From contig JACPQM010000072.1 in NCBI GenBank assembly GCA_016190505.1, forward strand, positions 1-64,000: a stretch of DNA of 64,000 nucleotides, in the 5' to 3' direction. Position numbers and translations under genes: made by a program. Each line of letters starts with the position of its first letter. The first letter of the stretch is position 1. Shown here one piece after another: positions 21,887-48,411 of the stretch. The DNA is from Chloroflexota bacterium (GTDB lineage: Bacteria > Chloroflexota > Dehalococcoidia > JACPQK01). The notes beneath the pieces are model-generated. The model did no database searches. It was not told where the DNA came from and saw only the letters and a list, made by a program, of their open reading frames with translations.

Positions 21887-21973
21887 GGGCCTACCCCCTG
21901 TTGAAGTTCGGCCCCGAGTATAGCACGTCACAGGAGACCGTGCCCATCTGCCACCACCCCCGGCCTGCCATTT

Positions 21974-22014
21974 ATTTGCACCTATGCGCAAATGATTTAT
22001 TCTTTTGGTAGAAT
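21974..22014 (+). promoter_or_regulatory. Promoter with imperfect palindrome ATTTGCACCTATGCGCAAAT and -10 TAGAAT
   Basis: 16/20 palindromic positions; TATGCGCAAATGAT starts 26 bp before the -10, same geometry as at 23549. Confidence 0.6.
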
Positions 22015-22058
22015 GAAGGGAGCGGGCAAAGCCCGTATCGCGATGAGGAGGTGGTGCA

Positions 22059-22637
22059 GTGAAACTACTCATGGGGATGCTGGTGGTGGCGGCCCTGGTG
22101 ATAGGGGCGCCACTAACTGCATCCACAGCCCTGGCCCAAGGCTTCACATTTGAGGTGCCCAAGACCAGCCTCAAGGTGTCTGACGTGGGCAAGATCAAGG
22201 TGGAGGCGGAGATAGACGAGGAGGGCAAGACCGTCGAGTTCCGCGTTGACGACCGCGAGTACATGGGCATGGATGTGGAGTTCATGCTCAACGGCGTGAG
22301 CTATACCGCCCACCACTTGATGGTGACCAACAACCTCGATGGCGAGGACATGATGGGCGACCACAAGGGCACCGTCACCGTCATGCAGAGCGACGGCAGC
22401 GAGTTGGTGTTCGAGTACGAGGGCGAGGCCGACGTGTCCCACATGATGCACAAAGTCGTGGTCAAGTCCCACGGCGACTTCAAGGTCACCGATGCCAGCG
22501 GGGTCTTCGACGACATGGACTTCAAAGGCATCGAGGGCACCTACATGATGAGGATCGTCGAGTACGGGCATGAGTTGGGCTCCGCCGTCGGTTTCAAGTT
22601 CTCCGCCATGGAAGTCATGGAGGAGATCGAGGAGTGA
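22059..22637 (+). CDS. Secreted protein of unknown function (Met/His-containing, acidic)
   Basis: Signal peptide MKLLMGMLVVAALVIGAPLTASTALAQ; good RBS GAGGAGG; no family recognised. Confidence 0.75.
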   Translation: MKLLMGMLVVAALVIGAPLTASTALAQGFTFEVPKTSLKVSDVGKIKVEAEIDEEGKTVEFRVDDREYMGMDVEFMLNGVSYTAHHLMVTNNLDGEDMMGDHKGTVTVMQSDGSELVFEYEGEADVSHMMHKVVVKSHGDFKVTDASGVFDDMDFKGIEGTYMMRIVEYGHELGSAVGFKFSAMEVMEEIEE

Positions 22638-22704
22638 GGCAGGCCCTCGCGTCTGATGCTTGGAAAATGACCAGAACTTCACACTGGAGAGAGGGAGGTA
22701 GCTG

Positions 22705-23313
22705 ATGAATAGGGTTCTAGCGGTGTTCCTGGCGCTGGCTCTGGTCCTGGGCTTTGGCGCCATGGCCCCGATTAGCATCGTCCAGGCCGGCGACGTCGAA
22801 GACGCCCAGGAGGATTTCGACGAGGCCATAGCCGAAGCCCAGGCGGACTTCGACGAGGCTGTCATGGAGGCCCAGGAAGAGTTCCATGAGACCGTAGCCG
22901 AGCTCAAGGACGAGCTCCACGAAGCCCTGGCCGAAGCCCAGGCGGACTTCGACGAGGCCATAGCCGAAGCCCAGGCGGACTTCGACGAGGCCGTGGCTGA
23001 GGCCCAGGAAGAGCTGGACGAGGCCCTGGCCGAGGCCGAGGATGCCGAGGAGATCGCCGAGGCCCAGGCGGACTTCGACGAGGCCATAGCCGAAGCCCAG
23101 GCGGACTTCGACGAGGCTGTAGCCGAGGCCCAGGCTGAGTTCGACGAGGCCGTCATGGAGGCCAAGGACGAGTTCCGCGAAGCCAAGATGGAGGCCAAGG
23201 ACGAGCTTAGTGAGGCTCTAACCGAGGCCCAGGAAATCCTCGACGAGGCTATCCTGGACGCCCAGGAAACCCTCGATGAGGCCCTGGCCGAGGCGGAAGA
23301 GGTGGAGGACTAG
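22705..23313 (+). CDS. Secreted acidic coiled-coil protein built of 11-residue repeats (AEAQADFDEAV)
   Basis: Signal peptide MNRVLAVFLALALVLGFGAMAPISIVQA then about 15 hendecad-like units. Confidence 0.8.
   Translation: MNRVLAVFLALALVLGFGAMAPISIVQAGDVEDAQEDFDEAIAEAQADFDEAVMEAQEEFHETVAELKDELHEALAEAQADFDEAIAEAQADFDEAVAEAQEELDEALAEAEDAEEIAEAQADFDEAIAEAQADFDEAVAEAQAEFDEAVMEAKDEFREAKMEAKDELSEALTEAQEILDEAILDAQETLDEALAEAEEVED
22816..23117 (+). repeat. Intragenic repeat: three identical 44-nt copies of TTCGACGAGGCCATAGCCGAAGCCCAGGCGGACTTCGACGAGGC
   Basis: Copies at 22816-22859, 22948-22991 and 23074-23117 read directly. Confidence 0.85.
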
Positions 23314-23324
23314 CCACCGCCGCA

Positions 23325-23346
23325 GGGGCGACCGGACGGTCGCCCC
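23325..23346. terminator. Hairpin GGGGCGACCG-GA-CGGTCGCCCC downstream of the repeat-protein gene
   Basis: 10-bp perfect arms; no T-tract, so termination is uncertain. Confidence 0.45.
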
Positions 23347-23369
23347 CACTCTCCACACAGCCTCAGGTA

Positions 23370-23397
23370 GAGCCGCCCCGAATCGTCGGGGCGGCTC
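23370..23397. repeat. Inverted repeat GAGCCGCCCCGA-ATCG-TCGGGGCGGCTC
   Basis: 12-bp perfect arms. Confidence 0.7.
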
Positions 23398-23437
23398 CGT
23401 CTTGCCGGCTTCCCAGCATCGCCAAGATCCACCATCA

Positions 23438-23508
23438 AGTAGGGGCGAAGCATCCGAAGCACCATGCTCGTAGACTTCCACCGTGTGGCCGGATGCTTCG
23501 CCCCTACT
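23438..23508. repeat. Inverted repeat AGTAGGGGCGAAGCATCCG ... CGGATGCTTCGCCCCTACT
   Basis: 19-bp perfect arms (23438-23456, 23490-23508) around a 33-bp loop. Confidence 0.8.
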
Positions 23509-23546
23509 CGGGCGGGGAACATTCTCGTAGCGGTTGCTTATTTCAG

Positions 23547-23580
23547 CATATGCGCATATGATAAACATATTTGATATAAT
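23547..23580 (+). promoter_or_regulatory. Promoter with perfect palindrome CATATGCGCATATG and -10 TATAAT
   Basis: 14-bp perfect palindrome 23547-23560; TATAAT 23575-23580; same 26-bp spacing as upstream of 22059. Confidence 0.65.
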
Positions 23581-23621
23581 ACTCAGAACGGTCAAGAAAC
23601 CGTATCGCAAGGAGGTAAGAG

Positions 23622-24053
23622 GTGAGGCGACTAGTGATGCTCCTGATGGTGGTAGCCGTCGCGTTGGGCTTCGGCGCCATGGCCCCGATTAACATGGTCC
23701 AGGCGGGCGACCTCGAGGATGCCCAGGCGGACTTCGAGGAAGCCGTGATGGAGGCCAAGGACGAGTTCCACGAGACCGTAGCGGAGCTGAAGGACGAGCT
23801 CCACGATGCCCTGGCTGAGGCTCAGGAAGAGCTAGATGAGGCCCTGGCCGATGCCGAGGATGCCGACGAGATAGCTGAGGCCCAGGAGGACTTCGACGAG
23901 GCCGTCATGGAAGCCAAGGACGAGTTCCGAGAGGCCAAGATGGAGGCCAAGGACGAGCTCCACGACGCCATAGCTGATGCCCAAGAGGACCTGGACGAGG
24001 CCCTGGCAGACGAAGAGGAGGACGAGGACGAGGACAACTCCGGACAGGGCTAA
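23622..24053 (+). CDS. Secreted acidic coiled-coil repeat protein, paralogue of 22705-23313
   Basis: MLLMVVAVALGFGAMAPINMVQAGDLEDAQADFEEAVMEAKDEF...; near-identical leader to paralogue. Confidence 0.8.
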   Translation: MRRLVMLLMVVAVALGFGAMAPINMVQAGDLEDAQADFEEAVMEAKDEFHETVAELKDELHDALAEAQEELDEALADAEDADEIAEAQEDFDEAVMEAKDEFREAKMEAKDELHDAIADAQEDLDEALADEEEDEDEDNSGQG

Positions 24054-24108
24054 GGCTCCGGCGTCGCCCGGAAAGAGAATTCCTCACAACTGAACACGTG
24101 AGTCCCCA

Positions 24109-24142
24109 GGGCCGGTGGGAATCCCCACCGGCCCAACCTTTT
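24109..24142 (+). terminator. Rho-independent terminator GGGCCGGTGGG-AATC-CCCACCGGCCC AACCTTTT
   Basis: Stem plus short T-run after 24053. Confidence 0.7.
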
Positions 24143-24172
24143 CCCGCAACATTGGACGGGACCGCTTTTTGA

Positions 24173-24202
24173 TACAATATCCTGAACGTCCTCCAAGGAC
24201 GT
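24173..24202 (+). promoter_or_regulatory. -10 TACAAT with 5'-terminal hairpin ACGTCCT-CCA-AGGACGT
   Basis: Hairpin begins 7 nt after the -10, as in the two upstream cassettes. Confidence 0.5.
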
Positions 24203-24224
24203 GGGGAGGGGAGGTGTGTAGCTC

Positions 24225-24605
24225 ATGAGGAGACTCCTGTCGCTGCTCCTGGTTGTAAGCATAGCGCTGTCTCTGGGCATCCTGGGCCCCGCTAGCGTGG
24301 CTTTGGCTGACCCGGGACCGGGGAAAGACGGCAGAGGCGACGAAGAGGATATCGAGGACGTTCTTAAGGATATCCGAGGTCTGAGAGACGTCCGCGACCT
24401 GAGAGATGTCCGGGACCTGGATGACCTCCGGGATGTCCTAGACATCTTCGACATAGACATCGAGGACCTGTTCGAAGAAGAGGAGGACATTGACGAGGTC
24501 CTGGAGGAGATCCTGGAAGAGTTCGAGGAGCTCAGCATATTCGCCCCACTGCGGGTAGTGCGGCTGTTGAGGCTACTCTTGCTCCTGGAGCTGCTGAACC
24601 CGTGA
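24225..24605 (+). CDS. Secreted highly charged repeat protein (RDVRDL repeats) with Leu/Arg-rich C-terminus
   Basis: Signal peptide; DIRGLRDVRDLRDVRDLDDLRDVLDIFDIDIEDLFEEEEDIDEVLEE then VVRLLRLLLLLELLNP. Confidence 0.7.
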   Translation: MRRLLSLLLVVSIALSLGILGPASVALADPGPGKDGRGDEEDIEDVLKDIRGLRDVRDLRDVRDLDDLRDVLDIFDIDIEDLFEEEEDIDEVLEEILEEFEELSIFAPLRVVRLLRLLLLLELLNP

Positions 24606-24640
24606 ACTGAGCCTACGCCAGCGCTAGGGCTTGCGTTTGC

Positions 24641-24666
24641 AAGGCCGCCGGTACTCCGGCGGCCTT
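24641..24666. terminator. Bidirectional terminator hairpin AAGGCCGCCGG-TACT-CCGGCGGCCTT
   Basis: 11-bp perfect arms between convergent genes. Confidence 0.75.
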
Positions 24667-24677
24667 GCCTTATCTCG

Positions 24678-25163
24678 CTAATGCGGGCGGGTCACCGAGA
24701 TGCTGACCGGCGCCGGCTCTCCAGGGTGCCAGAAGATGACCACTTTGCCGTAGGTGTCCTCCAGGCTGGCGACCACTTCCGCGGCCTCCTTCTCGCTCAG
24801 GCCGGGCAGGCTGGCCTCGACCTGGGGAATCTCGGTCTCGTGGTAGTGCCAGTTCGCCTTCTCCGCTTCCGGCAGCCCGGCGAAGAGCTGGGGGCTGATT
24901 ATGGTCTCCACGCCGATGAGCCGGGCGTTGGCCTCGTCGCTATCGAACAGCAGGCACTGGCTCACCTGGTCGTTGATGGCCTTGCAGTAGTGGTGCACCA
25001 CCAGGTCGGGCGCATCGTTGATGTGTTTCTTGGCGTCAATGTGCAGTGCAAACCCCGCAGACGGCGCTTCCGCAGCCGCTGGCTGTTTCGAGCAACCGCC
25101 CAGGACTCCTGCCACCACGAATAGCGCTGCTACCAGTGCTGACCAGAGATTGGCCTTGACCAT
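24678..25163 (-). CDS. DUF1264 (OBAP-like) lipoprotein
   Basis: Lipobox GVLGGCSKQP; VVHHYCKAINDQVSQCLLFDSDEANARLIGVETIIS ... WHYHETEIP ... YGKVVIFWHPGE. Confidence 0.75.
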   Translation of the reverse strand: MVKANLWSALVAALFVVAGVLGGCSKQPAAAEAPSAGFALHIDAKKHINDAPDLVVHHYCKAINDQVSQCLLFDSDEANARLIGVETIISPQLFAGLPEAEKANWHYHETEIPQVEASLPGLSEKEAAEVVASLEDTYGKVVIFWHPGEPAPVSISVTRPH

Positions 25164-46755: not shown

Positions 46756-48411
46756 TCAGACCTCGAGGGTGAAGGGCAGAATGATGGGCCGGCGTCGGGT
46801 CTTCTCGTAGTAGAGCCGGCTCAAAGCATCCTTCAGCTCGGAACGCAGTTGGTCGCCCGCTCTCATGCCCTGGTGGTGCGCCACCAGCCCCTCCACGAGC
46901 TTGCGTGTCTCCTCCACCAGGACCCGAGACTCCGCCATCTCCACAAAACCCATGGAGGCTACATCTGGATCACCCACCAACTGACCCGTCCGCTGGTCGA
47001 GGGCCAGGACGACCACTACCATGCCGTCACGGGCCAGGGCCTGCCGGTCCCGCAGTACCACTGGGCCAACCCCACCCACACTCAGACCGTCCACATACAC
47101 GTTGCCTGAAGGCACCCGTCCAGTCACTCTGGAGCCCTCGCCCGTCATCTCCAGCACATCCCCATCCTCCAACACGAAAGTGTTGCTGGGTGGCATTCCC
47201 AGGGACTGAGCGATGGCGGCGTGCAAGCTCAGGTGACGGTACTCCCCGTGGACGGGCACAAAGTACCGGGGGTTGACCAGATGGATAACCATCTTGAGCT
47301 CTTCCTGGCTGCCATGGCCGTGCACGTGCACCGGAGCGATCTTGTCGTAGAGGACCCGCGTCCCCAAACGGAACAGGTTGTCCAGCGTGCGGTTGACCAG
47401 GTGCTCGTTGCCGGGGATTGGGGTGGCAGACAGAATGACGGTGTCCCCCGGAACGATGTCCACCTGAGGGTGCTCGCGGATGGCCATGCGAACCAGCGCC
47501 GAAGTCGGTTCGCCCTGCGATCCGGTGGTCATGATCACCACCTTCTCCGGCGCCAGGCTGGGGAGCTCCTGGAGCTGTCCGATCAACCCGGACGGGGCTT
47601 TCAGGTAGCCCAGCTTCAGGGCCATCTCCACGTTGTCCCGCATGCTGCGGCCCACAAAAAACACCCGTCGGCCTTGGCGGGCCGCCGCCTCCAGGACGAG
47701 CTGCATCCTGGAGATGAGGGAGGCAAAGGTGGCGATGATCACCCGTCCCTGGGCTTCGGCCATGGTCCGCTCCAGGGTGTAGGCCACCTCCTGCTCCGAT
47801 GCTGTATAGCCCGGTACCTCGGCATAGGTGGAATCGGAGAACAGTAGCAGCACGCCCTCACCGCGCAGGCTAGCCAGCCGGGCGAAGTCCGTGGGCAGGC
47901 CATCCACCGGCGTGTAGTCCATCTTGAAGTCGCCGGTATGGACCACTGTGCCCAGAGGCGTATGGATGATCAGGCCCAGGGCATCGGGTATGCTGTGGCA
48001 TACATGGAAGAACTCCACTGAGAGCTTGCCGAAGCCCACTGTGTCCCCAGGTTGTACGATGTTCAGCCGAGCGCCAGCCAACTGGCGGTGCTCCTTCAGC
48101 TTTACTGAGATGAGGCCGTGGGTAAGCAGGGAGCAGTACACTGGGACATTGAGGCGAGGCAACACGTAGGGGAGGGCGCCGGTGTGGTCCTCGTGGCCAT
48201 GGGTGATTATGATCCCCCGCACCCGCTCCTGCCGCTCCAGCAAATAGGTGATGTCGGGGATAACCAGGTCCACCCCCAGCATCTCGTCTTTGGGAAACAT
48301 GACGCCGCAGTCAATGACGATGATGTCATCATCGCACTCCACCACCATCATGTTCCTGCCTATCTCGCCCAGGCCACCCAGAGGAATTATCCGCAGCTTC
48401 GGTTGAGACAT
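46756..48411 (-). CDS. rnj: Ribonuclease J
   Basis: LRIIPLGGLGEIGRNMMVVE; IITHGHEDHTGALPYVL; RYFVPVHGEYRHL. Confidence 0.95.
   Translation of the reverse strand: MSQPKLRIIPLGGLGEIGRNMMVVECDDDIIVIDCGVMFPKDEMLGVDLVIPDITYLLERQERVRGIIITHGHEDHTGALPYVLPRLNVPVYCSLLTHGLISVKLKEHRQLAGARLNIVQPGDTVGFGKLSVEFFHVCHSIPDALGLIIHTPLGTVVHTGDFKMDYTPVDGLPTDFARLASLRGEGVLLLFSDSTYAEVPGYTASEQEVAYTLERTMAEAQGRVIIATFASLISRMQLVLEAAARQGRRVFFVGRSMRDNVEMALKLGYLKAPSGLIGQLQELPSLAPEKVVIMTTGSQGEPTSALVRMAIREHPQVDIVPGDTVILSATPIPGNEHLVNRTLDNLFRLGTRVLYDKIAPVHVHGHGSQEELKMVIHLVNPRYFVPVHGEYRHLSLHAAIAQSLGMPPSNTFVLEDGDVLEMTGEGSRVTGRVPSGNVYVDGLSVGGVGPVVLRDRQALARDGMVVVVLALDQRTGQLVGDPDVASMGFVEMAESRVLVEETRKLVEGLVAHHQGMRAGDQLRSELKDALSRLYYEKTRRRPIILPFTLEV

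Follow-up and report, generated by a model that had tools for sequence, protein, structure and literature searches.

Paralogous secreted-protein cassettes in a Chloroflexota genome with a possible 5'-terminal stability hairpin and a shared upstream palindrome

Messages of Bacillus subtilis are stabilised by hairpins located at their 5' end or close to it, and BsRppH acts only where two or more 5' nucleotides are unpaired (PMC3997798). Three expression units described here, which lie within a 64,000-nucleotide stretch of the genome of an uncultured Chloroflexota-type bacterium (contig JACPQM010000072.1; hereafter the window), resemble such leaders. As in the B. subtilis aprE leader, a small hairpin occupies the predicted 5' end, a strong ribosome-binding site (RBS) lies downstream and outside the stem, and the genome encodes RNase J; in contrast to aprE, the leaders measure about 34-39 nt with a stem of 5-7 bp and have lost the stem in one paralog. 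As in Escherichia coli ompA and papA, the stem lies no more than 1-2 nt from the predicted 5' end of a secreted-protein message, yet here the stem is single and small, the leader is short, and no RNase E/G was detected.

The first-pass annotation had described three -10 boxes, each followed after seven nucleotides by a stem-loop and then by a purine-rich RBS. All of these elements are present on direct reading (Table 1), the RBS 3' of the stem in three of three window leaders, as is CCGTATCGC, which leaders 1 and 2 have in common. The three -10 elements are of the extended type (TGnTAnAAT), and the spacer from hexamer to stem is exactly 7 nt in every case. The stems comprise 6 bp (the outermost pair being G-U), 5 bp and 7 bp in cassettes 1, 2 and 3, with loops of 3, 6 and 3 nt, respectively. 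No TTGACA-like -35 element was found at any of the three window promoters, and a sigma-70 scan of the region requiring both hexamers recovered none of the three; transcription would start from promoters that have an extended -10 and lack a -35 box. The predicted +1 was placed from the 7-nt spacing to the -10, and since an invariant GA directly precedes the stem in the leader alignment, the transcript likely begins at A or G with 0-2 nt unpaired.

Table 1. Coordinates of genes, promoter elements, stems and other features in the window
Feature	Position	Strand	Basis
Palindromic operator-like site TATGCGCAAAT, imperfect, cassette 1	21983..21993	+	genome-wide pattern search
Extended -10 TGGTAGAAT, cassette 1 (hexamer TAGAAT, 22009-22014)	22006..22014	+	direct sequence reading, leader alignment
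Stem-loop GCGGGC-AAA-GCCCGT at predicted +1, cassette 1	22022..22036	+	reading, shuffles, fold energy
192-aa signal-peptide protein, Met/His-rich, beta-rich (low-confidence model)	22059..22637	+	
Downstream gene of cassette 1, encoding a signal peptide and an acidic coiled coil of 11-aa (33-nt) repeats	22705..23313	+	
Perfect palindrome ATATGCGCATAT, cassette 2, centre about 35 nt before predicted +1	23548..23559	+	pattern searches
Extended -10 TGATATAAT, cassette 2 (hexamer TATAAT, 23575-23580)	23572..23580	+	direct sequence reading, leader alignment
Stem-loop ACGGT-CAAGAA-ACCGT at predicted +1, cassette 2	23588..23603	+	reading, shuffles, fold energy
Signal peptide, acidic coiled-coil protein; C62 paralog 73% identical	23622..24053	+	
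GC-rich, terminator-like hairpin with T run, downstream of cassette 2	24107..24145	+	87% over 53 bp against C62 counterpart
Extended -10 TGATACAAT, cassette 3 (hexamer TACAAT, 24173-24178), without upstream palindrome	24170..24178	+	direct reading, leader alignment
Stem-loop ACGTCCT-CCA-AGGACGT at predicted +1, cassette 3	24186..24202	+	reading, shuffles, fold energy
Acidic 126-aa signal-peptide protein, weak similarity (35%) to 23622 product	24225..24605	+	
RNase J gene	46771-48393	-	

Predicted stem energies are -9.0, -4.4 and -8.2 kcal/mol for leaders 1, 2 and 3. When the leaders were shuffled one by one with dinucleotides preserved, stems of equal or greater length arose at the observed place with P = 0.0025, 0.0039 and 0.0034, and at any of the first 20 positions with P = 0.03-0.07. 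Because stems of 5 bp or more (loop 3-8, at most one G-U pair) have a background frequency of 3.5% per position in the genome, three of three stems at one offset are unlikely by chance; the three P values are not to be multiplied as independent, since the leaders are paralogous. Whole-leader folding z-scores are low for leader 1 (-3.18) and ordinary for leaders 2 and 3 (-0.66 and -0.06), and the stem upstream of the 23622 gene competes with another pairing in longer folds that take in the first codons. An Rfam search of positions 21900-24700 placed no family near its gathering score.

The three units are paralogous cassettes, each comprising a promoter, a short leader and one or more signal-peptide genes, with a terminator-like hairpin downstream, and they have spread by duplication. 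A fourth copy of the leader (C62, from 40617 onward) lies on another contig of the same genome and precedes a gene paralogous to 23622 (G000:C62:40694). This copy matches cassette 2 in the same order throughout, with 75% identity over 49 bp of leader, 72% over the gene and 87% in the terminator region. In a MAFFT alignment the four leaders run gap-free from the -35 region into the stem, with 26 invariant columns, and a covariance model built from them matched just these four sites in 693 kb drawn almost entirely from this genome. The gapless alignment, together with a C62 copy that has both a paralogous gene and a matching terminator, therefore identifies these units as duplicated expression cassettes, and the constant promoter-stem geometry is largely explained by their shared descent. 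Cassettes 1 and 2 are separated by a long inverted repeat, GTAGGGGCGAAGCATCCG...CGGATGCTTCGCCCCTAC (window 23437-23509), which looks dispersed and REP/MITE-like because its core occurs 23 times in the 668 kb sampled.

That the stems differ in sequence while keeping their position had been taken as a sign of selection for structure, and this claim stands only in part. In favour are the constant position and the four-row leader alignment, in which 22 of 24 cells of a six-pair stem can pair (91.7%, against 25-42% in slid controls). Two of the six pairs have changed on both sides and still pair: columns 53 and 61 read G-C, U-A, U-A and C-G, and columns 52 and 62 read G-C, G-C and U-A with one mismatch. 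With four rows only, the covariation score was reached by 16 of 500 shuffles and the number of doubly changed pairs by 106 of 500, and these compensatory changes are suggestive, lending modest support, from four related sequences, to a conserved structure. Against the claim stand the shared descent of the leaders, the unstable stem of the C62 copy and the absence of a comparable pattern genome-wide. In C62 a G-A mismatch breaks the stem (+0.6 kcal/mol), with its position and most pairs retained, and the promoter, palindrome, RBS and terminator are kept. The stem therefore appears dispensable for the cassette in general; each window leader taken singly has a stable stem, but the cassette family as a whole does not.

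Descent alone would suffice if the outer ACG...CGT were a frozen remnant and the inner pairs fortuitous, with no function for either, and we hold this to be a possible but rather unlikely account. The leaders are indeed homologous, C62 has lost its stem while retaining the rest of the cassette, and other promoters do not have such stems. Descent alone does not readily explain how pairs 52-62 and 53-61 came to be altered on both sides with pairing kept, nor why leader 3 has a 7-bp stem whose inner arms are unlike those of leader 2. The scarcity of such stems elsewhere was measured among 53 other promoter candidates with a downstream open reading frame (about 668 kb of the 3.23-Mb genome), one of which has a stem at +1; a looser count gave 5/33 stems at offset 7, three of them the window cassettes themselves. 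A genome-wide rule of +1 stems was accordingly rejected: each of the offsets 5-9 had at most one stem, against a mean of 1.8 across all offsets.

Operators of dimeric regulators, such as ArsR/SmtB-type palindromes, are known to lie over extended -10 promoters. In cassettes 1 and 2 and in C62, the motif TATGNGCAwAT stands exactly 12 nt 5' of the TGn-10 element; it is absent upstream of the cassette 3 -10. A pattern joining the palindrome to TGnTAnAAT at a spacing of 6-18 nt has three matches in 3.23 Mb, with none for the control reading, and one further match among 394 genomes of the class, at another spacing and probably by chance. The palindrome by itself (WTATGNGCAWAT) has one other match, within a transporter-like coding region. 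The centre of the palindrome, some 35 nt upstream of the predicted +1, falls where a -35 box would be expected, which points to a dimeric regulator and suggests a putative transcription-factor operator in place of that box, the probable site of one common factor in three of four copies. Like ArsR/SmtB-type sites, the palindrome is rich in A and T (ATATG..CATAT), has its centre close to -35 and accompanies a promoter that lacks a -35 box; no paper in the literature searched contains ATATGCGCATAT.

On a purely transcriptional reading, a regulator of ArsR or another dimeric type, acting as activator or repressor of cassettes 1, 2 and C62, would bind this palindrome and the stem would be incidental. 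The exact palindrome-to--10 spacing in three copies, including the stem-less C62, and the near-absence of the palindrome elsewhere speak for it. On the other side, of the four HTH_5 proteins encoded in the genome none is tied to the site, and cassette 3 has a stem and no palindrome, so that the two elements do not simply travel together. This reading as a whole strikes us as possible but rather unlikely; its first half, the proposed regulator at the palindrome, is compatible with the reading we prefer, in which operator and hairpin coexist. The remaining alternative, that the dyad from +1 to +16 works as DNA, either as a repressor operator or as an open-complex or promoter-escape element, is very unlikely: that interval is a common operator position and the outer ACG...CGT is common to leaders 2 and 3 and nearly so to leader 1, but the inner arms differ and the loops vary in a manner unlike the operator of one protein, and the palindrome at -35 is a much better candidate for a shared operator.

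Close relatives of the 22059 protein were found, within the class, in one other genome (G058, JACQTY010000061, an uncultured Chloroflexi MAG), with weaker ones in G058 and in the present genome (G000). In G058 the close homologs of 22059 occupy second place in an operon whose promoter, TTGACA-17-TATAAT, is unrelated, and because operon and promoter differ, the C62 paralog is the only usable leader comparison. A lower TGTAAT in G058, considered as a -10 with an 8-bp stem, was dropped in favour of the better promoter upstream. Further copies of the 22059 protein's domain occur at G058:C17, G058:C185, G000:C69 and G000:C99, those in G058 in tandem inside long open frames. The protein reaches the cut-off of no Pfam family, and its structure model, of low confidence (pLDDT 60, three sequences), has no PDB match at E <= 0.001. 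In the products of 22705-23313 and 23622-24053, the number of 11-aa (33-nt) repeats varies between paralogs. Near the C62 cassette lies a divergent gene (L039 1-777, minus strand) whose N-terminal part, in a by-eye translation, matches Cu-oxidase_3, a multicopper oxidase family. Considered together with the Met/His-rich composition of the 22059 protein, this gene makes a link of the cassettes to metals possible.

The stems had also been likened to the ompA-type stabiliser, which involves RNase E. This analogy fits poorly: the RNase E/G profile PF10150 has no match in the genome, compared with matches in 6 of 14 controls, an absence that is uncertain because the genome is 85% complete, and RNase J is present. 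With RNase J present and RNase E/G not detected, a Bacillus-type block at the 5' end fits better. Under the reading we prefer, the RNA would begin at the stem or 1-2 nt before it, with almost no single-stranded 5' end; the hairpin would slow decay that depends on the 5' end, by a pyrophosphohydrolase and then RNase J; and the RBS, lying outside the stem, would stay free. A decay-delaying 5' stem in three of four copies is in our judgement plausible.

Taken as a whole, the reading of paralogous cassettes with a palindrome shared by three of them and a 5' hairpin that slows decay seems to us about evenly balanced between right and wrong. A broader proposal is unlikely on present evidence: that in a deep Chloroflexota-type lineage a duplicating secreted-protein cassette carries both a private operator and its own stability stem, the latter maintained by compensatory change while its arms drift apart, and that new copies therefore arrive with regulation and mRNA lifetime preset. 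The sequence features themselves are real, and the finding is small and plausible: a familiar type of element in an unusual host.

Should the stem act as suggested above, it would be a simple 5' stability element in a host where RNase J is present and RNase E was not detected, within a group whose RNA biology has seen little experimental work. The naturally stem-less C62 paralog offers a ready-made comparison. Finally, the private palindrome would mark out a tiny regulon made up of secreted acidic proteins, and its regulator could be sought directly.
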